NCBI RefSeq assembly: GCF_009765785.1
Contig: NZ_LMUT01000012.1
Location: forward strand, 1,367,239 to 1,431,238
Length of the DNA stretch: 64,000 bases
Direction of reading: 5' to 3'
From: Granulicella sp. L46
GTDB taxonomy: Bacteria; Acidobacteriota; Terriglobia; Terriglobales; Acidobacteriaceae
In this document: positions 7,018 through 26,022 of the stretch, in pieces
Layout of the letters: every line of letters begins with the position of its first letter
How positions within the stretch are numbered: position 1 is the first letter of the stretch
Program-made: the position numbers and the translations under genes
Notes under the pieces: model-generated
Database searches by the model: none
What the model was told of the DNA's origin: nothing
What the model saw: only the letters and a program-made list of their open reading frames with translations

Positions 7018-8591
7018 AGACCCGCATGTATCAAATCTCCCTGGCGGCTGCTGTGGCCGCAAGTCTAGTTCTCGCGGCAGTGCTTGCGTTTACGCTTCTG
7101 CACCGAGCGCCTGCAGCTCCCGCAGCGTCATCCTCGCAGGATCCCGTCGTGGCGCGTGGGCCCGATGTGGGTTCGAATCCCATGCCGCAAGCCGGCGGCG
7201 CCGCGACCGGAGTCGAGGCCGCGCTCGCAACCGTGCAGTTGTCGCCACAACGTCTACAGGAAATTGGCGTAACCACTGCGACGGTGCAGCGCAAGGATGT
7301 CAACGACACGCTGACCGTTCCCGGGAACGTCAACATGGACGAAGAGCGGTTGTCGTATGTGCAGGTACGCTTCCCAGGCTGGATTCAACAGGTATTTGCG
7401 AATGCAACCTACCAGTACGTGCGCAAAGGGGAGCGGCTCTTCACCATCTACAGCCCCGACCTTGTGAGCAGCCAGCAGGAGTATCTGCTGGCCCGTCAGA
7501 ATCAGGACACCTTCGCACCGAATGCGCAGGATATGGCCGCGCAGGAGAGTGGCTGGATGATGCGTGCCGCCCAGGAGCGCTTGCGGCAATTCGATGTTCC
7601 CCAGCAGGCAATCGCGGACCTGGAACACAGCGGCAAGGTGCAACACGATATCGCAATCACTTCGCCGGCCTCCGGCTACATCATCGACCGCACCGCTCTG
7701 CCCAACGCCTACGTGCAGCCCGACACGAAGCTGTACACCATTGCGGACCTCTCAACGGTATGGGTTTACGCCAACGTATTTCAGAACGATGTGGGACGCC
7801 TCAAGCCCGGCGACTCAGCACAGGTCACGGTGGACGCCTATCCCGGTCGCAAGTTCAATGGCTGCATCGACCAGATCCTGCCCGAAGTTGATCCGACGAC
7901 CCGCACCGCGCGCGTGCGTCTGGTATTTCGCAACCCCCGCGTCGAGCTCAAGCCGGGCATGTATGTCAACGTCGCCATCTCGGTTCCGCTCGGCCAGCAA
8001 TTGGTGATTCCCGCCTCCGCGGTCCTGCAGTCAGGCTCACAGGCAATCGCGTTTCTCGACCACGGGAACGGTGTCCTGGAGCCGCGCGTGATCGAACTCG
8101 GACTGCAGCTGGATGACTCAGTGATGGTCCTCGGCGGACTCAAGGCGGGAGATCGGGTGGTGAGCTCCGCCAACTTCCTTGTGGACTCTGAAGCGCAGCT
8201 TCAAACCGCCATGGGAGCGTTTTCACCACTGCCGCAATCGGCCGCCGGATCCAGTAACGCCGTAGTCACGCAGATGCAGATCGACCTGAGCACGCAGCCG
8301 TCTCCGCCGCGCAAGGGCGCAAATACGGTGCAAGTAAAATTGGCCGCCATCGATGGCAAGCCGGTGACAGGCGCGCAGGTGGGCGTGACCTTCACCATAC
8401 CGGCAATGCCCGCAATGGGGATGGCCGCACAGCACGCCGCTGCCACGCTCACCGACAAGGGTAATGGCGATTATGAAGGATCGGTGCAGCTTCCATCCGG
8501 CGGCACCTGGACAACGACCGTCACGGTTCAGCGTGGCGGCAAGGCCATCGCTACCAGGCAACTGAGCGTCGACGCCACGGGAGGAATGTGA
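7014..8591 (+). CDS. CusB-like periplasmic adaptor (HlyD/MFP family) with a C-terminal FixH/YtkA-like domain
   Basis: 525 residues. An N-terminal membrane anchor (LAAAVAASLVLAAVLAFTLLH) is followed by the beta-barrel/lipoyl region (VPGNVNMDEERLSYVQVRFPGWIQ), an alpha-hairpin, the lipoyl half-motif ITSPASGYIIDRTALPNAYVQPD and a C-terminal membrane-proximal domain. This layout matches CusB/CzcB adaptors that bridge pump and channel. After about residue 420 there is an extra immunoglobulin-like segment (VQVKLAAIDGKPVTGAQVGVTFTIPAMPAMGM) that resembles FixH/YtkA domains and is Met-rich. It could hold Cu(I). The start overlaps the upstream stop, and the end overlaps the pump start. Confidence 0.9.
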   Translation: MKTRMYQISLAAAVAASLVLAAVLAFTLLHRAPAAPAASSSQDPVVARGPDVGSNPMPQAGGAATGVEAALATVQLSPQRLQEIGVTTATVQRKDVNDTLTVPGNVNMDEERLSYVQVRFPGWIQQVFANATYQYVRKGERLFTIYSPDLVSSQQEYLLARQNQDTFAPNAQDMAAQESGWMMRAAQERLRQFDVPQQAIADLEHSGKVQHDIAITSPASGYIIDRTALPNAYVQPDTKLYTIADLSTVWVYANVFQNDVGRLKPGDSAQVTVDAYPGRKFNGCIDQILPEVDPTTRTARVRLVFRNPRVELKPGMYVNVAISVPLGQQLVIPASAVLQSGSQAIAFLDHGNGVLEPRVIELGLQLDDSVMVLGGLKAGDRVVSSANFLVDSEAQLQTAMGAFSPLPQSAAGSSNAVVTQMQIDLSTQPSPPRKGANTVQVKLAAIDGKPVTGAQVGVTFTIPAMPAMGMAAQHAAATLTDKGNGDYEGSVQLPSGGTWTTTVTVQRGGKAIATRQLSVDATGGM

Positions 8592-11500
8592 TGATTTCGA
8601 AGATCATTGCCTGGTGCGCGCGCAATCCGTTCCTCGTCCTTGCCGGAGCGCTTCTCCTCGTCTTCGCGGGAGTTTGGTGCATGCGCCGTGTGCCACTCGA
8701 CGCACTGCCCGACATCAGCGACGTGCAGGTCATCATTCACACACCATGGGCGGGGGAGCCGCCGAATGTAATCGAGGACCAGGTCACATATCCGATTGTG
8801 ACCTCGCTGCTCTCCGCCCCCAACGTCAAAAGCGTGCGCGCCCAGACCATGTTTGGCGACTCCTATGTCTTCGTCGTCTTTCAGGATGGCACGGACCTCT
8901 ACTGGGCCCGCTCACGCGTGACCGAGTACCTTCAGCAGATCGCCGGGCGTTTGCCCGCGAACGTGCATCCCGCCATCGGCCCGGATGCCACGGGTGCGGG
9001 CTGGGTCTACGAGTACGCCATCGTCGACCGCACGCATACGAGAAGCCTCGCGGACCTGCGCGCGCTGCAGGACTGGTACCTGCGCTATCAACTCGAAACC
9101 GTGCCCGGCGTGGCGGAGGTCGCAAGCATTGGCGGCTTTGTGCGCCAGTATCAAGTCAATCTCGATCCCAAAAAACTCTTCTCCTACGGCATCTCCGCTG
9201 CCACCGTCATCGACCGCGTCCGGCAGAGCACCAACGAGGTGGGTGGCGACGTGCTCGACATGAATGGCGCCGAGTATATGATCCGCGGCCTCGGCTATTT
9301 GCACAACCTCTCCGACCTCGAAAATGTTCCTGTCGCCACAAAGAACGGCACACCAATTTTGATCCGCAATCTCGGCACAGTCTCCTTCGGTCCCGACGTT
9401 CGACGCGGCGCGGCGGACTGGCAAGGAGAGGGCGAAACCGTCGGTGGCATCGTCGTCATGCGCTACGGTATGAATGCGCTCAACGTCATTGACGGCATCA
9501 AAGCGAAGTTCAAAGAGATCGCACCCTCTCTTCCTCCCGGCGTCGAGATCGTGACTTCCTACGACCGCTCCTGGCTGATCGATCAGTCAATTCACACGCT
9601 CAAACGCGATCTTTTCGCCGAGGCGCTCATCGTCTGTTTCGTCAGCATCGCCTTCCTCTTCCACTTCCGCTCAGCACTGGTGCCTATCCTGACGCTGCCC
9701 ATCGCGGTACTGGCCGCGTTCATCCCCATGTACTTCCTGCACGTCAGTTCCAACATCATGTCGCTCGGCGGTCTGGCGCTGGCCGTCGGCGTGCTCATCG
9801 ATGCCGCAATTGTCATGGTGGAGAACGGCTACCGTAATCTCGCCGAGCGTAACGATGTGCCCAACAATGCAGAGCGACGCAACATCCTCATTCGTTCCGC
9901 GCAGCAAGTTGGCCCTGCGCTCTTCTATTCGCTCATCATCATTGTCGTTTCGTTTCTTCCGGTGTTTCTTCTGGAAGCGCAGGAGGGCCGCATGTTCCGG
10001 CCACTGGCCTGGACCAAGACGCTGGCGCTGATCTTCGCGTCGCTGCTCTCTATCACCCTGGTGCCAGCGCTGATGCCGTTTTGTCTGCGGGGAAAGCTGC
10101 GCCCGGAATCGGCCAACCCCGCCGCCCGCATCACCCAGGCCATCTATCTTCCCGTCCTACGATGGTGCCTGGGACACTGGAAGATTGTGATCGCCCTAAA
10201 CGTGATCTTCCTTGCCGTCACCATCCCTTTGTACTTCCGCCTCGGCAGCCAGTTCATGCCCGCGCTATATGAAGGCTCAGCTCTCTACATGCCGAACGCC
10301 TTGCCGGGCATCTCGATCACGCAGGCAGTCTCGCTCATGCAGGAACAGGACCGCGTCATCCGTTCCTTTCCCGAAGTCGACACCGTCTTCGGCACGGTAG
10401 GCCGTTCCGACAGCGCCACCGACAATGCTCCGCTCGACATGTACGACACCACCATCATGCTCAAGCCACGCGATCAATGGCGCGCCGGCATGACCTACGA
10501 AAAGCTAATTGCCGCAATGGACCAGAAGCTCCAGTTTCCGGGCCTTACCAACTCCTGGACGATGCCTGTCCAGAACCGGCTGGACATGGAACTCACTGGA
10601 ATCAAGACCGCGGTCGGTATCAAAATTCAAGGCCCGGACCTCGCCCACATCGAGCAGATCGGAGCGCAGATGCAACAGATCCTCTCCGCTATGCCCCAGG
10701 CCGATTCCGTCTATGCCGAGCGTGTCGCCCAGGGCTTCTATCTCAACGTCGAGGTGAACCGACTGGAGGCCGCCCGTTATGGTCTTACCGTCGCCGACGT
10801 GCAGCGCGTCGTCACTTCTGAGATCGGTGGAGCGGACATCGCCGAGAATGTAGAAGGCCGCGAACGCTTTCCCATCGCAGTACGCTATCAGCGTGACTTT
10901 CGCGATCACCCCGAGGCACTTTCGCAGGCACTCATTCCTACCTCGTCCGGGGAAGAGATTCCTGTCAGCGAGGTCGCCCGCGTCTACTTCTCGCGCGGCC
11001 CCTCCATGATCCGCGATGAAGACGGCGCGCTGACAGGCTATGTCTATCTCAATCTCAAGACCAACAACTACGGCGGATTCGTTAAGAGTGCGCAAGAGTT
11101 GTTGCAACAGAAACTGGTACTCCCCGCAGGCTATAGCTGGCGTTGGGCAGGAGAGTATGAGTTCGAGATGCATGCTAAGCAACGCCTGGAGATGATCCTG
11201 CCCGTCGTGTTCGTCGTCATCTTCCTTTTGCTTTACCTGGTTTTCAAGTCGGTCATCGAAGCGGCCGTGCTCATCTTTCCGACGCTGTACGCCATGTCCG
11301 GCGGCCTGTTACTGCAGTGGGTCCTCGGATACAACTTCAGCGTCGCCGTGTGGGTTGGATACATCGCTTTGTTTGGGATTGCGGTCGAGACCGGCGTGGT
11401 GATGGTGGTCTATCTTCATGAGGCCTATCAGGAGCGCCTCGCAGAGGCCGCGCCCATGACGGAAGCCGCGCTCGTTGAGGCCGTCATCAAGGGAGCAGTT

Positions 11501-14669: not shown

Positions 14670-15635
14670 CTAGATAGCTCCTGCTTGTTGGAGATCTTTT
14701 TTCATCCCTTCCCAACTCCTGACGGACGAAGCCTCCGGTGTCCCACCACCTTTCCAATGCGTCTCCAGATTGACCCCATTGGCGTAGCCGATCCCTTTGA
14801 GCGCCTTGAACTGCGCGACCCAATCGATATACCCAATGTCTACCGGCGACCAAACGATCTTGCCCGTCGCATCCTTAACCGCATTCTTCACGTGGCAGTG
14901 ATGGATGCGATCCTTGGGCAGGGCGTCCCATCCTCCGGGGTAGGCGTCAAGCTCACCGCGCATGACGGCATTGCCCGGGTCCCAATTGAGCGCAAGATTT
15001 CTCGAAGGAACGCCAGCAAGCGTAGCTGCAGCCTCGCGGCCCGTCGCCGTGTTGCATTCAAATTCATTCTCCAACACCAGCATTACATCTTGCTTCGCAG
15101 CAAACTCCGCTGCTTCCTGCAGCTTGGCATTGATGGCCTTCCGATACGGCTTGACATCGTCGATGCGCCAGAAATCGAAGCAGCGAACCTTATTCGTCTT
15201 GAACTGCTTTGCCAGGGAGATAGACCGTTCCAGCACCTCCTGTTGCTGGTTGAACTTGGTTTCATCTGCTCCATGAAGGTCTTCTTTGGAGCCGTATTGC
15301 GAGTGCGGAGCCTCAGGCCAGTCGACCTTATAGAGCGGACTGCTGATGTCCGTCACCTCGAGATCGTACTTCGCGAGGATCTTCTGCGCCCTCGCGATTT
15401 CGTCGTCCGAAACCGTCTGTAGATTCTTTCCCCAGATCTCGCGCAGCTCCACCCAGTGAAGTCCAAACTGCTTGCTGATTACATAACACGCATGGTCGAA
15501 ATCTTCTGACACTTCATCGGAGATCACACCGATCTTAAACTTCGATCCGGCAGCCCAGGCACGCAGCGGTAATAGGGAGGAAGCAACAGTTGCGACTGAA
15601 AGCTCGGCAAATTGGCGTCTGGAAAGCGTTTGCAT
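14670..15635 (-). CDS. Tat-exported sugar phosphate isomerase/epimerase-like TIM barrel (AP endonuclease 2 family)
   Basis: 321 residues. The leader LSRRQFAELSVATVASSLLPLRAWA has a twin-arginine motif and an Ala-rich cleavage region, so the folded protein should go to the periplasm. The rest is a xylose-isomerase-like barrel: KIGVISDEVSEDFDHA opens it. Metal ligands of the family are visible as VLENEFECN (Glu), LNWDPGNAV (Asp), HHCHVKNA (His) and VNLETHW (Glu). Relatives isomerise sugars or cleave 3-keto-glycosides. It lies in a run of Tat substrates with a Gfo/Idh/MocA oxidoreductase, which supports a periplasmic sugar pathway. Substrate unknown. Confidence 0.85.
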   Translation of the reverse strand: MQTLSRRQFAELSVATVASSLLPLRAWAAGSKFKIGVISDEVSEDFDHACYVISKQFGLHWVELREIWGKNLQTVSDDEIARAQKILAKYDLEVTDISSPLYKVDWPEAPHSQYGSKEDLHGADETKFNQQQEVLERSISLAKQFKTNKVRCFDFWRIDDVKPYRKAINAKLQEAAEFAAKQDVMLVLENEFECNTATGREAAATLAGVPSRNLALNWDPGNAVMRGELDAYPGGWDALPKDRIHHCHVKNAVKDATGKIVWSPVDIGYIDWVAQFKALKGIGYANGVNLETHWKGGGTPEASSVRSWEGMKKDLQQAGAI

Positions 15636-15699
15636 CGATCGAACCCCTCAATGGTTATCAGTGTGACGAAGGTTGGAGCCGTAAAGATGCGAATAATCG

Positions 15700-16167
15700 C
15701 TAGGCGATCGCCCTCTGCAGTCCCACCGCAACAACGAAGTAACTCGCAGGACCCGCGCCCACGTTCTTCAGGCTATGCAGTACCGCCGAGGCGGTAAAGA
15801 CGACGTCGCCCGCATGCACGATGCCGCGTTGGCCATCACTATCGACCTGCAACTCCCCTTGGCGGATCAACAGCAGCTCCGAGTGGGCATGGCGGTGCGG
15901 CGGATGCGGCATCTCGCCGGCAGGCAACATCGTTTCGTGCACCTCGATGAACTCGCCTGTGGCAAGCGTCCCCTGCACGACCGCACGCGACGTCATGCCA
16001 TTCGGTGCTGTCTTGACCGGTAACTTGTCATACGAAAACAACTCCGAGTGGGCCAGTTTTGGAACATCTCCCGCCGACGCACCGATCTGCGCCTCTCCGG
16101 AGAGACTGCCCAGCATCGCAAATGCCGACAACGTCAAACCTAACTCACGACGATTCATCTGACTCAC
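15700..16167 (-). CDS. Tat-type leader cupin-domain protein
   Basis: 155 residues. The start MSQMNRRELGLTLSAFAMLG resembles a twin-arginine leader. A single cupin follows. Motif 1 is PHPPHRHAHSELLLIRQGEL, with three His and a Glu for metal, and motif 2 is GDVVFTASAVLHSLKNVG, with the fourth His. The barrel ends with SYFVVAVG. Small cupins bind a metal and often a sugar or act as dioxygenases or isomerases. Its place between the two isomerase-like genes, with small gaps on both sides, suggests it acts on the same substrate in the periplasm. Confidence 0.83.
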   Translation of the reverse strand: MSQMNRRELGLTLSAFAMLGSLSGEAQIGASAGDVPKLAHSELFSYDKLPVKTAPNGMTSRAVVQGTLATGEFIEVHETMLPAGEMPHPPHRHAHSELLLIRQGELQVDSDGQRGIVHAGDVVFTASAVLHSLKNVGAGPASYFVVAVGLQRAIA

Positions 16168-16198
16168 AGTTCACTCCTTCGCGACTAGCTGTGCCGAG

Positions 16199-17074
16199 TT
16201 ACATCTGCTTCTGATAACCCATGCCCGCCAGCACGCCGCGCATGTAGGCGAAGCTGTAGCTCACGCCAGGCATAGGGTCGTCGGCATGGATCTCGTACTC
16301 CAGGTCAACGAAGCCCTTGTATTTTATTGCGACCAGCGCCTCGAAGATGCCGCGTACGGGCATCAATCCTTCGCCCACGGCAACCTGGCTATCCTTCGCT
16401 GTCGCGTTAGCGAGATCCTTCATGTGCATATTAAAGAGCCGCGGCCCCACCGCATGAATAGCGTCAACAGGATTCACGCCCGCACGCATGCAGTGTCCCA
16501 CGTCGATGCAACAACCCATGCGCGGATCCATAGTGCCTACGGCCTTCAAGACATCCAACGGCGAATGCCAAATCTTGTCTTCCGGTCCGTGGTTGTGAAT
16601 CGCGAAGCGAATGTCATACTCCTTCACAAATTTCTCGATACGCGGAAGCGTCTCGGGCGCAGGGTCTCCGGCAACGATCACCGAAACGCTAGCCCGCTTG
16701 CAGTAGTCGAACTTACTGCGAATGTCATCATCCTCGTCCTTGGGAAAGTAGATGGCTCCCAAGGCATGTAGTTGGATGCCCGCGGCAGTATAGTCGGCCA
16801 CCGCTGTCGCTTCCTGGGTCGGATCCATCGGCAGGTGATCTTTCACGTCCTTTGCATTCAAGGCAGTGAGATTCAGTTGCTTCATGTACGTGATCAGCTG
16901 TGCTCTCGTAAAGTTGCGAAAGGTATAGCTCGCTAGACCCAGCTTGATGCCGGTAGCCTGTCCCTCCAGCGCGTAGTTCTGGGCGGCAGCAGAGATCGCA
17001 CCGCCGCAGGAAATAGCCGTCGCAGCCAGCGCCCCACTGCGGAGAAAGTTTCGACGTGACCTATCGTGGTTCAT
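16199..17074 (-). CDS. Tat-exported sugar phosphate isomerase/epimerase-like TIM barrel, second copy
   Basis: 291 residues with a clear twin-arginine leader (DRSRRNFLRSGALAATAIS) and a cleavage region near ISAAAQ. The barrel carries IKLGLASYTFRNF, FAIHNHGPEDK, the CCIDVGHCMRAGVNPVDA segment and NMHMKDL. It then has the late Glu in GFVDLEYEIHADDP, a set compatible with divalent-metal binding. It differs from the other isomerase-like gene in the cluster and so is a paralogue, not a duplicate. The stop lies 17 nt upstream of nothing shared, but spacing to the oxidoreductase gene is only about 17 nt, so they are probably co-transcribed. Role inferred: keto-sugar isomerase, epimerase or lyase. Confidence 0.87.
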   Translation of the reverse strand: MNHDRSRRNFLRSGALAATAISCGGAISAAAQNYALEGQATGIKLGLASYTFRNFTRAQLITYMKQLNLTALNAKDVKDHLPMDPTQEATAVADYTAAGIQLHALGAIYFPKDEDDDIRSKFDYCKRASVSVIVAGDPAPETLPRIEKFVKEYDIRFAIHNHGPEDKIWHSPLDVLKAVGTMDPRMGCCIDVGHCMRAGVNPVDAIHAVGPRLFNMHMKDLANATAKDSQVAVGEGLMPVRGIFEALVAIKYKGFVDLEYEIHADDPMPGVSYSFAYMRGVLAGMGYQKQM

Positions 17075-17091
17075 GGAACTCCTCTCACTGA

Positions 17092-18408
17092 TTACAGTTG
17101 CGGTGCCCAGCCCTTCTCATACTCGCGTCCCCACATCTTCATCGCAGTTGGATCGCCGAGCACCTTGCCGTTCACCGCGTCCAAATGCAACTCGCGGTTG
17201 ACCTCCCACGCAATATTCGAGAGCTGCAGCATCGTAACCGCGACGTTCCCCTGCGCAATCGGCTGATGCAGCTTTTCTCCCTTTTGAATTCCGGCGATGA
17301 AATTCGCAAAGTGCGCATCGGTCATTGAATCGCGGCCAACAAGATCCGACGAGCTGGTTGCCGTCTTGTCCGCCTTGTACTCGCTAAGCTTTTTGCCGTT
17401 CAGGTCGTAAATTTCATAGCCGTCCCGGTCCACGATCACCGAGCCCGTCGTCCCCATCACCTCGATGCCGCGGTCGCGATTGAAGTACTTCATGCCGTTG
17501 CAGCACTTGCCTTCCCAGGAAAGCATCGCGTCATCATAAGCAAAGCTCGTCACCATCGTGTCGTAGAACTGCCAGTCGTCCTTGAACTGATACCGCCCCG
17601 CCGTCGAGGTCACGCTGTTCGGGTACTCCACACCAAGCGCCCAGCGCGCCACATCCACCTCGTGCGTTCCATTATTCAACGACTCACCCGTGCCCCAGGT
17701 CTTGAACCAATGCCAGTTGTAGGGCTGCACGTTGTCCTTGTACTCCTGACGCGGAGCGGGTCCCTGGAACAGGTCCCAATCCAGCGTAGCCGGAACCGGA
17801 ACAACCTTTCCGTAGCCGATAGACTTGCGCACGTTGGAATACCAGGTCTTGGCGAAATAGGCGCGCCCGATCAGTCCATCGTGAATCTTGTTCACGATCT
17901 CGATGGTGTGCGGTGACGAGCGTTGTTGCGATCCCATCTGCACCAACTTGCCGTACTTCTTCTGTGCCTCGATCAGGAGCGCACCTTCGGCAGGATTGTG
18001 GGAGCAGGGTTTCTCAACATACACATTCTTTCCCGCCTGTAGTGCCAGGATCGCTATCGGAGTGTGCCAATGGTCAGGTGTCGCGATCGTAATCGCGTCA
18101 ATTTCTTTCATTGCAAGGATGTTCCGAAAGTCCTTCTCGCCGACAGGCTCTTCGCCCATCATTTGTGAAGCGCTGCTCACATACTTCTTCAGAATATTGC
18201 TCTCGACATCGCACACATGCGAGATACGCGCATTGGCCTTGTTTGCCCTCAGCGCGGATAAGTGTGCATACGCGCGGCTGTTCAGCCCAATCACGGCGAA
18301 ATTCAGGCGGCTATTCGACCCGAGAATCCGTGCATAGCTTTTCGCCGTACTGCTGATTGCCAGACCTGCGGCCCCAAGGGTATGGATGAAGTGACGACGT
18401 GTGATCAT
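17092..18408 (-). CDS. Tat-exported Gfo/Idh/MocA-family oxidoreductase
   Basis: 438 residues from the ATG with GGGAGG five bases upstream. The leader ITRRHFIHTLGAAGLAISSTAKS is a twin-arginine signal. The Rossmann domain has LNFAVIGLNSRAYAHLS and the typical YVEKPCSHNPAEG segment, whose Lys belongs to the family's catalytic set. The C-terminal alpha/beta domain contains WHWFKTWGTGESLNNGTHEVDVARWAL, with a His-Asp pair near the active site. Exported members keep NAD(P) tightly bound and oxidise or reduce sugar hydroxyls. It neighbours GH2 and isomerase-like genes in the same orientation. I infer oxidation of a glycoside hydroxyl, possibly at C3. Confidence 0.9.
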   Translation of the reverse strand: MITRRHFIHTLGAAGLAISSTAKSYARILGSNSRLNFAVIGLNSRAYAHLSALRANKANARISHVCDVESNILKKYVSSASQMMGEEPVGEKDFRNILAMKEIDAITIATPDHWHTPIAILALQAGKNVYVEKPCSHNPAEGALLIEAQKKYGKLVQMGSQQRSSPHTIEIVNKIHDGLIGRAYFAKTWYSNVRKSIGYGKVVPVPATLDWDLFQGPAPRQEYKDNVQPYNWHWFKTWGTGESLNNGTHEVDVARWALGVEYPNSVTSTAGRYQFKDDWQFYDTMVTSFAYDDAMLSWEGKCCNGMKYFNRDRGIEVMGTTGSVIVDRDGYEIYDLNGKKLSEYKADKTATSSSDLVGRDSMTDAHFANFIAGIQKGEKLHQPIAQGNVAVTMLQLSNIAWEVNRELHLDAVNGKVLGDPTAMKMWGREYEKGWAPQL

Positions 18409-18520
18409 TGACCCTCCCAAAGGTCTCGAGCTGATTCTCGCTTAGTTCGGCCAGCACCACAGCTGAAGATATCTATCTCTATATGAGACGGACAAGTCCA
18501 CTGACTTGTTGCTGGTGTCG

Positions 18521-20446
18521 TCAAGGCTTCTCTCCGCGAACTTTCTCGCCTGGATTTCCCGCAGGACGCACTTCAGAGCCAGAGGCATCGGGAGCCGCCG
18601 GAGCCGTTTGCAACGAGAGGGAAGGACCGCCCCCATGGCCAGCCCAATCCCTGTAGGTCTTCTGCAGAACGAAGAATGCTTCCTTTTTCCCGCCCGTGTT
18701 GGAGATCAGACCCTTCCGGTTGAACCCATCCTGAAGACCCGGCAGTTGTCGCATGGGCGACCTGAAGTCCACGAGAATCCATGGACTCAACCCGCGAAAC
18801 TGGGGAATCTTCGCCAACATCGGCAACTGATGCTCGAAGATACTTGCCTGGTATTCTTCAGTCCATCGTTGAGTGGCAGCGCCATGCAATCCCGCCTTTG
18901 CGTCGCCTCCGAACTCACTGACAATTAATGGTTTGTTATAGCCAATGTGCCAGTGGGTGAGGTCGGCGTCCGCGGGTGATTGCTCGTACCAGCCAATATA
19001 TTCATTCATGCCAATCACATCGAGCGCCTCGCCCAGCGGGTCGTCGACATACTTGTCGTGTCCCTCGGATCGGACCAGAAGTGCTGCCGTCACCAGCCTC
19101 GTGGAATCGAGCGCACGCACATCTCCTGCAAGTGTCTTAAGGAAAGCTGTTCGCTCTGGAGTGAGAGGTGTTTCATTCGCGATCGACCACAGCACCACCG
19201 ACGCCTTGTTTCGATCTCGGCGAATCTCCTCTTCGAGCTGTCCTTGCGCCTTCGCGAGCACAGTAGGGCTGCCGAAGTCCTCAGCCCAGTAAACCGGAAT
19301 TTCAGACCACACCATCAGCCCAAGACGGTCAGCCGCACGAGTCATGCGTTGGTCATGCGGATAATGCGCAAGCCGGACAAAGTTGCAACCAAGCTCCTTG
19401 GCCCAGCCCAGCAGCGTGGCTGCATCCTGGTCGTTATTGGCCCTGCCCCCACGCAGCGGCGCTTCGCCATGAATAGAGATGCCGCGAAGAAACACAGGCT
19501 TGCCGTTCAGCAGGATGTCGGTTCCGCGAACTTCAATCGTTCGAAATCCCATTTCGTCATCGAGACTATCTTCACCAGACACCAGATGAACCTTGTAAAG
19601 CTTAGGATGTTCGGGGCTCCACAAGGCAACATCCTTCGCCGCGAGCGAAATGGTCCCACGTTGATCGTTGCCAAGTTTGGCGGACACGCTGCGGCCCAGT
19701 TCCGGAAGCGAAATCGTGACCTCGTCTCCTGCAATCGCGCCTTGCACGTGCACGCTTCCCACAATCGCAGTGCGTTCGCGATTCAAATGCAGGTCGTAAT
19801 CGTCGATATATTTGGCCGGAACATCGACCAGCGAGATGTCGCGGGTGAGTCCGCCGTAGTTCCACCAATCCGTGTTTAACGTTGGTATACCATCCGCCAG
19901 GCGCGTGTTGTCGACTGCAATGACAATGAAGTTCTTACCCGCGCGAATGCTGCTCGAAACATCACAGTCAAAATCGGTGAAGCCTCCCTCGTGGCTACAT
20001 ACTTTCTGCCCGTTCACCCATGCGATGGACTTGTAGTTGGCTGCCCCAATGTGCAGAAATGTCTTGTGGCCGGCCGGCTGGGTATAAGTAAAGTTTCGCT
20101 GATACCACAACAAACCTTCGTAATAGAAGAGTGAGTCATGCTGTGTGTTCCAATCCCCTGGAACCTTCAACGTGGGCGATTTACCGAAGTCGTACTCGAC
20201 CAACCCCTGGCTATCGGTTTCCGGAGCCCCGTTGAGAAAGAATCCATCCTTTCGTATCTCTCGGTGAAAGTTGTACAGTCCGCCGTCATATGGGTCGACG
20301 ATGTAGTGCCAGTCACCATTCAGCGTGACCATCTTTCGATGGTCGGCATTAACCAGAACGGTAGTGGACTGGGTTTGCCCGTGCGCGCCGACGGTAAGGA
20401 CGGCGGCAAACGCCGCTGCCAGAAGTACGCGAAGCTGAGGTTGCAT
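18521..20446 (-). CDS. Glycoside hydrolase family 2 (beta-glucuronidase/beta-galactosidase-like), exported
   Basis: 641 residues. A signal peptide (VLLAAAFAAVLTVGAHGQ) precedes the sugar-binding jelly roll (LNGDWHYIVDPYDGG, VPGDWN, WVNGQKVCSHEGGFTDF). An Ig-like domain and the catalytic barrel follow. The acid/base Glu425 lies in LWSIANETP and the nucleophile Glu511 in PLIVSEFGGD. GEAPLRGGRANND and RLAHYPHD are further GH2 signatures. The overall size fits beta-glucuronidases better than large LacZ enzymes. It would cut a terminal beta-linked sugar from a glycan in the periplasm. The gene lies between the receptor and the oxidoreductase in the same direction. Confidence 0.9.
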   Translation of the reverse strand: MQPQLRVLLAAAFAAVLTVGAHGQTQSTTVLVNADHRKMVTLNGDWHYIVDPYDGGLYNFHREIRKDGFFLNGAPETDSQGLVEYDFGKSPTLKVPGDWNTQHDSLFYYEGLLWYQRNFTYTQPAGHKTFLHIGAANYKSIAWVNGQKVCSHEGGFTDFDCDVSSSIRAGKNFIVIAVDNTRLADGIPTLNTDWWNYGGLTRDISLVDVPAKYIDDYDLHLNRERTAIVGSVHVQGAIAGDEVTISLPELGRSVSAKLGNDQRGTISLAAKDVALWSPEHPKLYKVHLVSGEDSLDDEMGFRTIEVRGTDILLNGKPVFLRGISIHGEAPLRGGRANNDQDAATLLGWAKELGCNFVRLAHYPHDQRMTRAADRLGLMVWSEIPVYWAEDFGSPTVLAKAQGQLEEEIRRDRNKASVVLWSIANETPLTPERTAFLKTLAGDVRALDSTRLVTAALLVRSEGHDKYVDDPLGEALDVIGMNEYIGWYEQSPADADLTHWHIGYNKPLIVSEFGGDAKAGLHGAATQRWTEEYQASIFEHQLPMLAKIPQFRGLSPWILVDFRSPMRQLPGLQDGFNRKGLISNTGGKKEAFFVLQKTYRDWAGHGGGPSLSLQTAPAAPDASGSEVRPAGNPGEKVRGEKP

Positions 20447-20606: not shown

Positions 20607-23600
20607 CTAGAACGTCAACCTGCCACCCAGTTGGATGACCCGCTGGGTGCCGGCGGCCGAAGTGATGGTTGCTTGAGAGGCCGACGTGATGTTTCCAGAG
20701 GATGGGTTGTTAAGACTCACCCAGTTCATGACGTTCGTGATTTCGGCGCGGAACTGGAACACGATTCCCCGCGGGAAGGAAATGTCCTTGAACAGGCCCG
20801 CATCCATGTCCTTCAGCCCAGGCCCGACCAGGGAGTCGCGTCCCACGTTACCATCCGCGCCGCCAGGACCGATGCCACCGGGCAAGCCGGGGCCATTGGC
20901 CGTGAACGCTGCATTGTTGAACCACGCCTTTGTGACACTGTTGGTGGCGCAAACCCGGCAACGATTCGGATTGAGCTTGGGGCTGACTCCAGGAACCGCG
21001 TTCGGACGGCTCTGGCCCAAACTGTCTAAGTTCTTATTGGATCCCGTCGACACTGTAAAGGGGCCGCCGCTCATGAAATAGGCGACCGACGAGACCTGCC
21101 AGCCGTTAACCAATTCCTTTACGACTTTGTTCGATCCGGTGTAGTAGCTGAGCTTCCAGATACCGGAGATCGCAGCATTGCTGTTGTGGTTCTGATCCAT
21201 CAGTCCATACTCTTCCCGAAGGCCGCCGCCGACCGCGCCCAGGGAGTTGTTGGACGGGGTGAAGGGGCCGCCAAGTACACCGAAGTCCTGCGCGTTCATC
21301 AATCCATTCTCCACCGGGTTGGAGCTTTCCAGCGCGCGACTCCAGACATAGAAACCGCTGAGACTGAAGCCGTGTGCCATCGTTTTGGTCGCCGAGATTT
21401 GCAACCCGTTATAGTTTGAGCTTTGGTTTGAGATCAGCTCGGTAATCCCGGTCAGCGTGCCAGGTGCTCCTGGAGCGCCCGCATCGTACTGGCGACGGAT
21501 GTCGGTGCTGGACGCCGCCGTGCTGGGCTTGCCGAAGACGGTTGAATACGGCGCGTAGTTAGCGTCAACGAAGGTTTGCAGGTGACGACCAAGGGTGCCT
21601 ACATACGCTACCGTCGTGCTTATTTTGTAAGGTAATTGCCGCTGCACGCTCACGTTGTACTGGTACACCGACGAATATTTAACATTCGGATCGATAGCTT
21701 CGATGCTGGTGTTCGGGTAGAACTTCGGAGCGGCCGGCGTAAAGGTGTACGGGAAGATTCCTCCGCCGGGAGCGGTGCTGGGAAAGTTGTAAGCGGGACC
21801 TCCATAAACATTTGTCAGCGATGGAGTAGGACCAAACCCGTTGCGAATGGAGAATGGGGCGGCGTTGCCGGGCTGGTTCCATTCGTTACCGCTCGGAGTT
21901 CCGAAGAAGATGCCCGCTGCAGCGCGAATCGAGGTCTTGCCGTCCCCAAATGGATCAAATGCAAAACCAACGCGAGGCGAAATGTGATTGAACTGCGTGC
22001 TGATGATGCCGCGCCCGATTCCCTTGTCCCCAGGGAACACTTGGCCCTCCGGCGCATTCGGAGTAACGGTGGATTGCTGGTAGGGAACAAAGGAAGCCGT
22101 TCTGTCATGCGCATCGACAGGAGGCGTATCGATGTCCCAACGGATTCCGAGGTTGGCGGTGAAACGGGGCGTAATGCGGTAATTGTCCTGCACAAAGCCG
22201 GCAAAGTGCCAAGTGCTCAGATGCGTCACGTACGTCGAGTCCTGCTCAAATGCGCTGGTTTGGCCGGCGACAAAATCCGCAATCGCATTCCCCGTAGTGG
22301 TGGGCGCAGAGGTCGAGAAGGTCACATCGCCATAATTATTCAAATTCGCAAGGAACATCGTCTTGTCGAGAGCGAACTCAGCGCCAACGGAAAGATTGTG
22401 TCTGCCTCTGGTGATGCTGACCACGTCGCGTAACTCATAGTTGTCGGAACCCGTGACCGGGCCGGCATTCGGGTTGCCCGTGTTGAAGGCGCCGCTGATA
22501 TTCAGATAGGGCAGTCCCGCCGGTCCCTGGATGGTGAAGTTCGAGCCGAAACTCCCGAGTGTCTGATTGCCTGGGCCGGTCACGGGAAGGAGAGTGCGTC
22601 CGCCCATCGCCCGTGTGAAAGTGAGCCAAACCTGGTTCGTCGTGCTGGGGCTGAAGGTGTGAGCATCGGCCACAACGGCATTCGTCTGGCCGGCATGCGA
22701 CTGAACCCCAGTCCAATTGATGTTGCCGCCTCCGCTGGGAGTTGACGTGGTATTGACGTAAAAGTAGGTGACGGTCACATGGTCCGCGTTGGCGATGTTC
22801 TGGTCGTACTTGGCCAGGTACTCGTCCGAGTCTGTCGGCGTGTCATATACGCCGATGTACGCCCCACCGCCGCTCGACGGCGCGGCTGCGCCCGTCGGCA
22901 GCGGAACGGATACGCCAATCTTGTTGTTTACGTTCAGGAAATTTGCAGCCGTCGGGTCCAGGAGGGATGTGGGCATGCAGTTCAGCGTGGGAATCGCGCA
23001 GTTGGGACTACTATTTGTTCCATCTACCTGGGTATGGGTACCCGGCATGTAGACCTTGAAGGTGTCCCCAGTAAAATCGCCCATGCGCTCGGCGGCCGTG
23101 GGTGTCAGAGCGCCTGAGACCGTTGCCCCCTGTATCTGGCGCAAACCGGCATAGCTAAAGAAGAAGAAGGACCGATCGCGCTTGATGGGCCCCCCGAAGG
23201 CTGCGCCAAAATTGTTGCGGTGATACGGGTTCTTCACCAAGGTATGGGTAAAGGCGTTGGGCGCCGGATTCCAGCTAAACGCGTTGAAATCGGTGTTGCG
23301 GTTGAACTCAAACACCTCACCGTGGAACTTGTTGGTTCCTGACTTGGTCACCACGGTCACCACGGCGCCGGAGAATTGCCCATACTGCGCTCCGAACGCG
23401 TTGGTCTCTACGCGGAACTATTCAAGTGCGGAAGGGTTGGGAGCCGAGTTGCCGTAGTTGCGCATACCGGTAATGTTGTTGCCGCCATCCAGGTAAAATG
23501 CGACATTTCCGTTGCCCGAATCGAGCGAGCCGTTGACCTGAACGTCCGCCGACGGCAGTCCAACGGTAAAATTTGGGGTGCCGCCGGGATTCGTGGTGGG

Positions 23601-24140
23601 ACTGCTGCTGTTGGCCATCACGCCCGGTGTCAGCGATAGTTCAGCGTAAGCGTTGCGATTGACCAGGGGCAGGCCCTGGATCTCCTGCGAGGTCACAACT
23701 CTCCCCAGTTCGGAGGTTGAGGTGTTGATCAAAGGTGGCGCACTCGTGACTGTGACGGTCTCCGTCGCAGCACCGGCAACTAACGGGACTTCAAGCGTCA
23801 ATGTTTGATCGACGGTGAGGTCGATATTTTGTTGCGTGAAGTGTTTGAAAGATTTAGCTACCACTTCGACGGTGTAGCTGCCGACCGGAAGAAAATCGAT
23901 GCGGTACTCTCCGAGACCATTTGTCTGCACCGCTCGCGAGAACCCGGTTGCCACGTTCGTGGCCGTCACTGTCGCCGTGCTCACCACGGCCCCGGTTTGA
24001 TCCTGGACGGTACCAACAATGGTGCCGGTAGTCTGTTGCGCGTGAACTCGGGCAAAGCTGGCAGATAAGAGTAGAACGCCGATCAGGCACAAAAGGTATC
24101 TTGCGTGGCGGAGAGTATGGTTCGTAATTGCGGTCTTCAT
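20607..24140 (-). pseudogene. Oar-like TonB-dependent receptor interrupted by an in-frame amber codon
   Basis: One reading frame of 1177 sense-plus-amber codons encodes an acidobacterial SusC/Oar-type receptor. It has a signal peptide (YLLCLIGVLLLSASFARVHA), a carboxypeptidase-regulatory domain (GTIVGTVQDQTGAVVSTATV), a TonB plug (QEIQGLPLVNRNAYAELSL, VAFYLDGGNN) and a long barrel ending in IQLGGRLTF. After NPSALE the codon TAG (23418-23420) stands where the family has a Glu or Gln in the LEEFRVET motif, and the frame resumes at once as FRVETNAFGAQYGQ. No other lesion was seen. So the gene has either a single recent nonsense change, a base error, or stop-codon readthrough. If intact it would import oligosaccharides for the neighbouring enzymes. 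Confidence 0.85.
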
Positions 24141-24495
24141 CTAGCCTCCAAAAGTGTTGATTCCTCTACATCGCTTTCCCGCCAGCACGTGGGTTGGTGT
24201 CTGTATCTGGCAATCGAGGTGATGTGAGTACGGCAGCCACACTATGGCCAGGAAGATTGCTTTGTCTTGTGAATTGCGAGTGAATGCAGGTTAGCTGCAA
24301 CCCATGCAACTTGACCGCCAAGCCGCGGCTGGAAAGACCTTTAGGCTCAGCACTTTCCAAGAGCGCCGCTAACATTTGTTAGTGGTTGTTAGCGATCAGT
24401 GTCGGCGGCTTTGGCGCAGACAGCAATGCAATGGAAGGAAGCCGCCAACACCCTTCACTCGCGCGCAAGCGATCTGTTATCTTTAGGATCACCGA
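24141..24495. promoter_or_regulatory. Divergent promoter region between receptor and malectin-domain regulator
   Basis: This 355-bp stretch holds no gene I can support. It serves as the common 5' region of the leftward receptor and the rightward regulator. The part near the regulator contains a cluster of CTAAC/GTTAG half-sites (listed separately). Short reading frames inside it lack ribosome sites. Confidence 0.6.
24367..24394. promoter_or_regulatory. Candidate operator with CTAAC/GTTAG half-sites
   Basis: CGCTAAC and GTTAGCG enclose a central GTTAG. TAACATTTGTTA inside is a perfect inverted repeat, and the two GTTAG copies are exactly 10 bp apart, so they face the same side of the helix. 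The cluster lies about 100 bp before the regulator start and about 230 bp before the receptor start. A site for the adjacent regulator is the natural guess. Confidence 0.45.
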
Positions 24496-26022
24496 ATGGG
24501 AACGTCTGCGGCATCTGCCGGATTGGATTTCACGGAACGTGCAGAGCTCGACTGGCTGCTGGAGTCCGGAGCTCTCGGTCGCTCTGCGAACCTGATTAAA
24601 GTATTGCGTTACGTTTGCGACGAGACTGCCGCCGGCCGAGGCGACCACATCAAGGAGTACTCGATCGCCGTCGAAGCCCTTGGACGCAAGGCAAACTTCG
24701 ACCCCCAGACCGACACCATTGTTCGCGTGACGTTTCACACTCTGCGCAAGCGTCTGCAGGATATCTACGAGACCGGCGAAGGCATGTCCCACACGGTCCG
24801 GATTGTCATTCCCACTGGGGGGTATGCGGCACAGTTCGTGCATCTGCAGGAAGCTGGTCGTGCCTCCCACGTCCCGGGCGCGGAACCCGGGGGAAGCTTG
24901 CCCATTGGGTCGCCGCTCGCGTCCTCGGCGCCCGAGCCTCCGTTTCCGTTGTCTCCCGCGCCGACGCGGCATTTCCCCTGGTTGTGGCTGGGCGCTCTCG
25001 TGGCGGTCGCCTTGGTAGCCGTCGCTCTCTGGCGCCAATCGCACTCATCTCACTCCAGCCTGATGGAAGCCTTCTCACCCGCAGCCCCAGTCACCATTAG
25101 CGGACCTACCCACATTCTCTTCGGGAAGGGGAGGCACCCCTACACCGATCGCTCCGGAATCCGCTGGGAACCAAAGCCTGCATGCGAGGGTGGAGAGTCC
25201 GTTCCGCCCACCGGCGTAGCGTTTTCGGGGACCGAAGACTCGTACATCTACGATGGCGGTATTCGTGGAATTGTCCGGTGCATCTTTCACGCGCCGCCCG
25301 GGCTTTACGAACTGCGGCTCCATTTCGCTGAGCCTGGCAATCTCGAGCCCGCCCACCGGGTCGTATCTCTTGCCGTAAACGCCGGCCCCACTCAGTCTGT
25401 CGATGTAGTTGACCGCGCAGGCGGAGATCACGCCGCCACTACCTTCACCATTCCGGGTATCCGCCCGGAGAACGATGGCACCATCCACTTGGATTTCACA
25501 AGTGAGGTATCGCCCGTCAATGCAATCGAGATCCTGCCCGCACCCACGGTTCAAGCGCTTCCGCTTCGAATCGTTGCGGCATCGACTCCATTCAAAGACG
25601 ACGCTGGAAACGTCTGGCTCTCTGACCGATACTTCCGCGGAGGCCGCCACGGACAGCCCCCCGATCAGGAACATCGTCCGAGTCTCGGTCTCTACTCCTC
25701 CGGCCGCATCGGCACATTTCAATACTCACTGCCCGCTCCCAAAGGCAGTAAGTACCGCGTGACCTTATATTTTCGCGAGCAATGGTTCGGACAGGAGAAT
25801 GGAGCGCCCGGCGGCGTAGGAAGCCGCGTCTTCAATGTCTACTGTAACGGGCAGAGTGTTCTGCAGGACTTTGACATCCTCGCAGATGGACACGGGCAGT
25901 CGGTCACCAAAACGATCGACGGCGTCTCTCCCACAGCCCAGGGCGAGATCAATATTGCATTTGTCCCTGTCACGAACTATCCGCTCGTCAACGCCATCGA
26001 GGTCACGCCGGAGAATCCGTAA
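24496..26022 (+). CDS. Membrane-anchored one-component regulator with two periplasmic malectin-like domains
   Basis: 508 residues. The N-terminal ~115 residues (LLESGALGRSANLIKVLRY, GDHIKEYSIAVEALGR, NFDPQTDTIVRVTFHTLRKR, RIVIPTGGYAAQF) match the winged-helix-like domain that begins many acidobacterial regulators. A Pro/Ala-rich linker and one membrane span (WLWLGALVAVALVAVAL, about 163-180) follow. Two malectin-like beta domains complete the protein: one from about 199 (LFGKGRHPYTDRSG, then GTEDSYIYDGGIRG) and one from about 350 (DDAGNVWLSDRYFRGGR, then YRVTLYFREQWFG). Malectin folds bind di-glucose or related glycans. The layout is ToxR-like: sugar sensing outside, DNA binding inside. It diverges from a receptor/GH2 cluster, its likely target. 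Confidence 0.8.
   Translation: MGTSAASAGLDFTERAELDWLLESGALGRSANLIKVLRYVCDETAAGRGDHIKEYSIAVEALGRKANFDPQTDTIVRVTFHTLRKRLQDIYETGEGMSHTVRIVIPTGGYAAQFVHLQEAGRASHVPGAEPGGSLPIGSPLASSAPEPPFPLSPAPTRHFPWLWLGALVAVALVAVALWRQSHSSHSSLMEAFSPAAPVTISGPTHILFGKGRHPYTDRSGIRWEPKPACEGGESVPPTGVAFSGTEDSYIYDGGIRGIVRCIFHAPPGLYELRLHFAEPGNLEPAHRVVSLAVNAGPTQSVDVVDRAGGDHAATTFTIPGIRPENDGTIHLDFTSEVSPVNAIEILPAPTVQALPLRIVAASTPFKDDAGNVWLSDRYFRGGRHGQPPDQEHRPSLGLYSSGRIGTFQYSLPAPKGSKYRVTLYFREQWFGQENGAPGGVGSRVFNVYCNGQSVLQDFDILADGHGQSVTKTIDGVSPTAQGEINIAFVPVTNYPLVNAIEVTPENP

Follow-up and report, generated by a model that had tools for sequence, protein, structure and literature searches.

The closest described relatives in function are membrane regulators in which one polypeptide carries both the sensor and the DNA-binding domain. 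SusR of Bacteroides is a membrane regulator with a periplasmic sugar sensor that controls the adjoining TonB-dependent receptor SusC and glycosidases; its DNA-binding domain is C-terminal, the family is described as unique to Bacteroidetes, and the predicted SusR-like motifs are direct repeats with a long spacer (PMC3878776). CadC has been proposed to target a quasi-palindrome in Cad1 (PMC5430869), and a census of transmembrane transcription regulators relied on Pfam DNA-binding models (PMC10269533). A literature search covering titles and the starts of abstracts, chiefly outside subscription journals, found no membrane regulator with a malectin sensor. Here we describe a gene from Granulicella sp. 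L46, contained in a stretch of 64,000 nucleotides that was analysed as a whole (the window), whose product is best explained, and in our judgement likely, as a one-component regulator that spans the membrane and controls an Oar-based locus for glycan utilisation, similar to ToxR/CadC or to SusR.

The gene and the parts of its product are as follows, the placing of the malectin domains in the periplasm being a prediction.

24496..26022, + strand: regulator open reading frame with an ATG start, encoding 508 aa, with an N-terminal DNA-binding-type domain, one membrane span and two malectin domains
24523..24849, + strand: N-terminal domain, residues 10-118, probably an OmpR-type winged helix without the N-terminal sheet
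24973..25029, + strand: membrane span, residues 160-178, from hydropathy
25096..25533, + strand: malectin domain 1, periplasmic, about residues 201-346, sugar-site aromatic pair absent
25555..26013, + strand: malectin domain 2, periplasmic, about residues 354-506, W430/F431 kept and I405 at the place of Y89

The initial annotation of this DNA had proposed a single membrane span followed by two tandem malectin domains, and both proposals were borne out. The Pfam Malectin family (PF11721) matches the 508-aa protein with 71.4 bits against a cut-off of 23, over two stretches, and residues 160-178 form the one strong hydrophobic peak (Kyte-Doolittle mean 2.31; next peak 1.24). No Pfam family reached its cut-off in the first 200 residues, and the Pfam scan found no histidine kinase, receiver or other kinase domain in the regulator. 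With this topology the N-terminal domain would be cytoplasmic and the malectin pair periplasmic.

The regulator faces a set of genes on the opposite strand across a gap of 355 bp, a distance that had been claimed earlier and is confirmed by the two starts (24140 for the Oar gene, 24496 for the regulator).

20607..24140, - strand: Oar-type TonB-dependent receptor, CarboxypepD_reg plug and OMP_b-brl_4 barrel (636 bits), divergent from the regulator
18521..20446, - strand: GH2 enzyme, with a signal-like N-terminus by eye and an intact frame
17092..18420, - strand: Gfo/Idh/MocA oxidoreductase, from Pfam/NCBIfam
14670..17074, - strand: genes for two xylose-isomerase-like TIM-barrel proteins (AP_endonuc_2) flanking a cupin gene, the probable rest of the cluster

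These genes had been read as an Oar/GH2/Tat-enzyme cluster, and the Oar receptor, the GH2 enzyme and further enzymes on the same strand are indeed there; the Pfam TAT signal appears in two of the proteins, but only below threshold. In NCBIfam the GH2 enzyme is best matched by beta-glucuronidase (249.5 bits, cut-off 544) and the oxidoreductase by the glycoside 3-dehydrogenase BT_2158_fam (132 bits, cut-off 750); both matches fall below cut-off and serve as leads only. The genes at 14670-18420 beside GH2, with their oxidoreductase, two xylose-isomerase-like proteins and cupin, possibly form a 3-keto-glycoside route.

The Oar gene is in two pieces, the plug at 24140-23418 and the barrel, whose open frame covers 23363-20607, with an in-frame TAG at 23420-23418 between them; because of this stop, a working Oar receptor under control of the regulator is doubtful in the source genome. 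The broken gene, together with an end branch of 1.27 for the window protein in the tree described below (0.13-0.58 for the six other members of its clade), could mean that the locus is decaying in this genome and that selection has relaxed on the regulator, by now a relic that is free or put to another use. We consider this decidedly unlikely: the regulator frame is intact, with E54, R77, R84 and the promoter repeat all present, the barrel and GH2 frames are intact as well, and the lone TAG may have arisen recently or reflect a sequencing error. The Oar gene of one close relative (L091) is likewise in two open frames, of 448 and 732 aa, which may itself be chance or a sequencing matter.

The same architecture was searched for elsewhere, as suggested for a check on the initial annotation: of 150 family genomes scanned, 27, the source genome included, gave matches with E values no higher than 1e-25. 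From 32 genome stretches and 79 named loci we drew 60 distinct proteins in which the N-terminal domain is joined to malectin, all of them acidobacterial and including members from Granulicella, Bryobacterales, Solibacteraceae and Silvibacterium bohemicum (L097, the same as L043); judged from sequence, an architecture recurring in this way is far beyond chance. Two of the 60 (L072 and L117) are incomplete, and the tree was built without them. Duplicates were dropped (L097, L118 and L123, of L043, L066 and L072, respectively), as were L067 (N-terminal frame unread), L070 (GH16 in place of malectin), L071 (contig end), L120, L122 and L124 (frame unread or partial) and L140 and L147 (no frame from the ORF caller), and loci in which the N-terminal domain comes without malectin were not counted among the 60. 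Two irregularities may be mentioned here. L109 and L116 hold near-identical regulators on contigs labelled as two acidobacterial taxa, one of these metagenome bins probably being mislabelled, and at L045:8114-10633 an NAD-binding epimerase-like sequence upstream runs without a break into the regulator frame, giving an 839-aa open frame that is either a fusion or merely an open frame.

When neighbours were counted as ORFs of at least 150 aa, or ORFs matching one of four profiles, Oar was the first upstream gene in 27/59 relatives (26 divergent, one co-directional) and the first downstream gene in 7/56, compared with 9/328 positions three or more genes away. In the 59 rows of the tree, the next gene on one side is Oar in 34; the other 25 comprise 11 with a TPR protein, five with a malectin-bearing neighbour and nine others, some of them near contig ends, and a universal link to Oar is rejected on these numbers. 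Within the window's own clade of seven rows (support 100/100) Oar adjoins all seven. The 11 regulators that face a TPR protein all belong to one well-supported clade of 13, and this partner is itself conserved, at 247-314 aa (L047:11176-11946 and equivalents in 10 more counted loci). The association with Oar was also seen when malectin was disregarded: of the 52 genes in seven genomes that carry the N-terminal domain, at least 28 have an Oar match no more than 3.5 kb away (3.1 expected), 21 of the 28 divergently, and in the source genome this holds for at least six of eight such genes and five of the seven paralogues. These counts are lower bounds, the Oar matches entered being part of the 313 in six genomes and the best 50 of 69 from the source genome.

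Behind the divergent Oar gene, 10 loci have further co-directional genes within reach. They encode 27 proteins, of which 25 were scanned by HMM (L111:3029-4015, L115:2680-3993 and L115:452-2665 against NCBIfam only); L096:3856-5685 rests on blastp and L111:1087-3045 stood outside the scan. Glycoside hydrolases were found in seven of the 10, and the contents behind Oar are as follows.

L048: GH31 and GH3
L052: GH10
L055: GH42 and GH39
L093 and L096: GH2
L103: GH130/GH32-like and MGH1-like proteins
L115: xylanase/feruloyl esterase and arabinofuranosidase, below NCBIfam cut-offs
L049: ricin-type lectin
L106: enolase-superfamily and RraA-like enzymes
L111: TPR and cytochrome-like proteins

The expected link of homologues to glycan clusters was thus found: in different genera the regulators have Oar and glycoside-hydrolase genes as neighbours. 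Enzymes related to the window's GH2 stand beside the same type of regulator in L091, L093 and L096 (69%, 50% and 50% identity, respectively); in L091 the regulator, the two Oar frames and GH2 are co-directional, and in L093 and L096 Oar is divergent. Since, among the operon neighbours of the relatives, the window's isomerase-like and cupin proteins have no match and its Gfo/Idh protein has a single partial one (L114, 37%), the cluster beyond GH2 appears from these comparisons to vary between loci. In L043 and L044 neighbouring enzymes carry a malectin domain with fn3, and one enzyme per locus also carries GH16.

The N-terminal domain occurs in eight genes of the source genome (5.48 Mb, 39 contigs), the window's and seven paralogues, and E54, R77 and R84 are invariant in an alignment of 38 rows. 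Its AlphaFold2 model (pLDDT 85.7) has helices at residues 12-24, 31-45, 54-61 and 75-93 and strands at 101-104 and 113-116, an order that in the model fits the helices and wing of an OmpR-type winged helix minus the N-terminal sheet. The initial annotation had proposed a winged-helix-like domain, and on this point the evidence is divided. A Foldseek search of the model against the PDB returned no significant structure (best E 2.5), the CadC DNA-binding domain appearing in that same non-significant list at rank 20 (E 6.6), and the single match of the profile to PDB sequences (E 1.2) was taken as chance. In the Pfam scan Trans_reg_C (PF00486) was above cut-off in 0/38 members; below threshold it was found in 6/38 (best E 0.082), the most members for any family, and AAA_assoc_C in 4/38 with a better E value of 0.0045. 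An hhalign comparison of an alignment of 112 N-terminal sequences with 16 Trans_reg_C domains from the source genome (L084, with an internal stop, excluded) gave a score of 23.4 and E 0.002, at a probability of only 13.7%. It aligned residues 30-88 with the Trans_reg_C helices, so that the sequence LRKRL coincides with the corresponding end of the recognition helix, whereas the controls, namely GntR, penicillinase repressor, malectin and TPR alignments (excluding L180-L182 from GntR and L185 from Penicillinase_R) and eight column-shuffled alignments, scored 16.4 or less. The domain also heads TPR proteins in Alphaproteobacteria, one of them with a sub-threshold TolB_N match, and an acidobacterial AAA-like (sub-threshold)/TPR protein. 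The head of such proteins is a place commonly taken by Trans_reg_C. On the profile comparison, the sub-threshold matches and the domain context, we consider the domain to be probably a winged helix. Five further loci (L002, L004, L007, L008 and L156) combine it with a different periplasmic part of about 230-300 aa; those of L002 and L156 have no Pfam match.

A putative operator had been pointed out at 24367-24394 in the initial annotation, and a real, conserved promoter motif does fall there, as a candidate only where binding is concerned.

24369..24392, + strand: candidate operator, CTAACA-TT-TGTTAG overlapping a direct repeat

The direct repeat in this promoter reads TTGTTAG-TGG-TTGTTAG and has a 10-bp period. 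For comparison we assembled 46 promoter regions, those with a divergent first upstream ORF at a distance of 60-700 bp, L116 being dropped as a near copy of L109. These divergent regulator promoters contain 201 copies of GTTA, or 7.28 per kb-strand, about 3.5 times the density in control regions from the same loci (2.26 in 40 other divergent regions and 2.09 in 146 other intergenic regions, the 40 being also among the 146), and GTTA direct repeats of 10/11 bp were found in 14/46, compared with 1/40 and 2/146 of the controls. A check on redundancy with one region per similarity group (n=39) gave a density of 7.22, and 37/39 of these representatives exceeded the control mean as against 55/146 controls. 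In the same 39 groups 56/91 GTTA pairs are in helical phase, within windows chosen after the GTTA distances had been seen, and 0/2000 positional shuffles reached as high a figure; of 136 tetramers GTTA ranks first for 10/11-bp repeats (12/39 regions; next tetramer, 6). The sites are most frequent 50-125 bp upstream of the regulator's start. Inverted GTTA repeats were rejected as the family signature, their spacing being scattered and the direct repeats in helical phase clearer.

The enrichment is present with Oar, TPR and other partners alike, so that the regulator gene is the element that these promoters have in common. The idea that GTTA goes with the N-terminal domain in general was rejected: the promoters of the paralogues in the source genome have 1.96 copies per kb-strand against 2.09 in the controls, and 40 genes with the N-terminal domain but no malectin, mostly from Alphaproteobacteria, have 3.38. 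The lack of GTTA enrichment at the promoters of the seven paralogues would fit a clade-specific recognition. A wide regulon in the source genome is unsupported, since the repeat with at most one mismatch has 7 matches, the window's included, against 17 for a reversed-pattern control. The exact repeat occurs there only once, in the window, pointing to what may be a local switch with autoregulation.

Both sets of results bear on a further reading, in which the N-terminal domain does not bind DNA, GTTA belongs to another regulator, and signalling occurs by contact with that regulator. The domain has no Pfam or PDB match above threshold, and the missing motif at the paralogues' promoters agrees with such a reading; that the motif accompanies the regulator gene whatever its partner does not, and neither does the profile, which of the sets tried comes nearest to Trans_reg_C and aligns in register at the recognition helix, nor the position of the domain at the head of TPR and AAA-like/TPR proteins, the usual place of Trans_reg_C. 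We regard this reading as very improbable and retain an N-terminal domain that would bind DNA.

The model of the periplasmic part, residues 194-508 (pLDDT 89.1), has as its best PDB matches the ectodomains, likewise tandem malectins, of the Arabidopsis proteins ANXUR and FERONIA (for the ANX2 ectodomain E 3.8e-17, TM 0.48 over the query), and human malectin matches at E 5.6e-8. The malectin sugar site includes Y89, Y116 and F117 among other residues; the 27-residue spacing from Y89 to Y116 agrees with a count on the malectin sequence. At these places domain 2 of the window protein has I405, W430 and F431, and domain 1 has no aromatic pair. Across 61 rows, 59 of them readable at the columns concerned and compared at the Y89, Y116 and F117 places only, the pair is found in domain 2 of 22/28 members with Oar at -1, the window's included, and in domain 1 of 7/11 members with TPR at -1. 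CrRLK1L ectodomains, according to one study, are without the canonical sugar site, and no tested sugar was bound (PMC6038381). Because they are without the site and the regulators keep the pair, the malectin regulators would seem to be closer to malectin than to the CrRLK1Ls in their sugar-site aromatics, a protein ligand being possible.

Such a ligand defines an alternative in which the regulator is the same but its malectin pair senses a protein or peptide, be it the inner part of Oar, the TPR partner or a cell-wall protein. The fold itself suggests it, the best matches being those CrRLK1L ectodomains that bound no tested sugar and FERONIA-type ectodomains being binders of RALF peptides; candidates are at hand in the TPR protein of one clade and in the N-terminal CarboxypepD_reg domain of the Oar partner, a domain that is usually periplasmic, and domain 1 of the window protein has lost its aromatic pair. 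The pair retained in domain 2 of most Oar-associated members, unlike in the CrRLK1Ls, argues the other way, as do the neighbouring operons rich in glycoside hydrolases, the malectin-bearing enzymes of L043 and L044, and L070. In this relative (8197-10050) the same N-terminal domain and span precede a GH16 domain (49.9 bits, cut-off 22), in which the motif that we take to be catalytic reads GSVTLAE, compared with GELDMME and GEIDIME in the GH16 enzymes of L043 and L044; from these residues, the sensor place of L070, a single case, is occupied by what appears to be a GH16 domain without two of the three catalytic acids. We therefore think a protein ligand unlikely, if the least so of the alternatives weighed here, and a glycan as ligand of the malectin pair to be partly supported, on the basis of the partly retained site aromatics and the neighbour genes.

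We regard as established the architecture, the conserved partner genes, the conserved promoter motif and the malectin fold, and from there we infer DNA binding, ligand, direction of control and dimerisation of the regulator. Our working hypothesis is that the cytoplasmic N-terminal domain binds the GTTA repeats in the gap from which the regulator and Oar genes diverge, and that the tandem malectins bind a periplasmic oligosaccharide let in by the Oar receptor, perhaps one containing glucuronic acid at the window locus, judged from the type of GH2 enzyme. The signal would pass through the single helix and a flexible linker, probably by dimer rearrangement, and both the Oar/GH2 operon and the regulator's own promoter would be switched without a phosphorelay. 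A one-component glycan switch of this kind had been put forward in the initial annotation; the membrane span, the missing kinase and receiver, the Oar and glycoside-hydrolase neighbours and the promoter motif support it in part, but the Foldseek search for a winged helix was not significant and the Oar gene carries a TAG.

More broadly, we lean towards the view that Acidobacteriota have their own large, uncatalogued class of Oar-dedicated membrane one-component regulators, built on a domain without a Pfam model and forming the counterpart of SusR and of hybrid two-component systems. In this joint proposal the domain also precedes TPR parts, in Alphaproteobacteria and others, tandem malectin and inactive-type GH16 serve as interchangeable periplasmic sensors, and the GTTA operator is peculiar to the malectin branch. 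There are dozens of Oar receptors per acidobacterial genome; the source genome has 69 PF25183 Oar matches, some of them parts of one gene, and two matches besides the window's contain a stop (C15:61571-64255 and C5:331485-334277). A readable sensor and operator beside the receptor would make it possible to match each Oar receptor to its substrate through binding assays, and would allow regulons to be predicted from sequence. The family also suggests that glycan-binding and worn-out enzyme domains have been turned into transcription sensors outside Bacteroidota.

Among known systems, the regulator shares with the CadC/ToxR-like proteins an N-terminal DNA-binding-type domain, a linker, one span and a C-terminal periplasmic sensor, with no phosphorelay and with a site near the target operon; it differs in that its N-terminal domain falls outside Pfam Trans_reg_C, an extra helix replacing the starting beta sheet in the model, and in that its sensor is a malectin pair. 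It belongs, moreover, to the same general class as the proteins of the transmembrane regulator census, which combine a DNA-binding domain with a membrane span (PMC10269533), yet window-type regulators were probably missed by that census because their N-terminal domain has no Pfam model, and the family is probably invisible to Pfam-based surveys of membrane regulators in general. The hybrid two-component systems have a histidine kinase and a receiver, both absent from the window regulator by Pfam. With the CrRLK1L proteins FERONIA and ANXUR, its best fold match, it has in common a tandem malectin ectodomain on one membrane helix, but it has no kinase, its output is of the DNA-binding type, and two sugar-site aromatics are present in domain 2. 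Animal malectin (PF11721) offers the same domain family, fold and aromatic pair as domain 2, whereas the window's domains are tandem, bacterial and part of a regulator, with Ile at the place of Y89. The likeness to SusR lies in a membrane regulator beside a TonB-dependent receptor and a glycosidase, and in a direct-repeat motif; the window regulator nevertheless stands outside that family, with its DNA-binding-type domain at the N-terminus, a repeat period of 10 bp, a malectin sensor, an Oar receptor as partner and relatives in Acidobacteriota.
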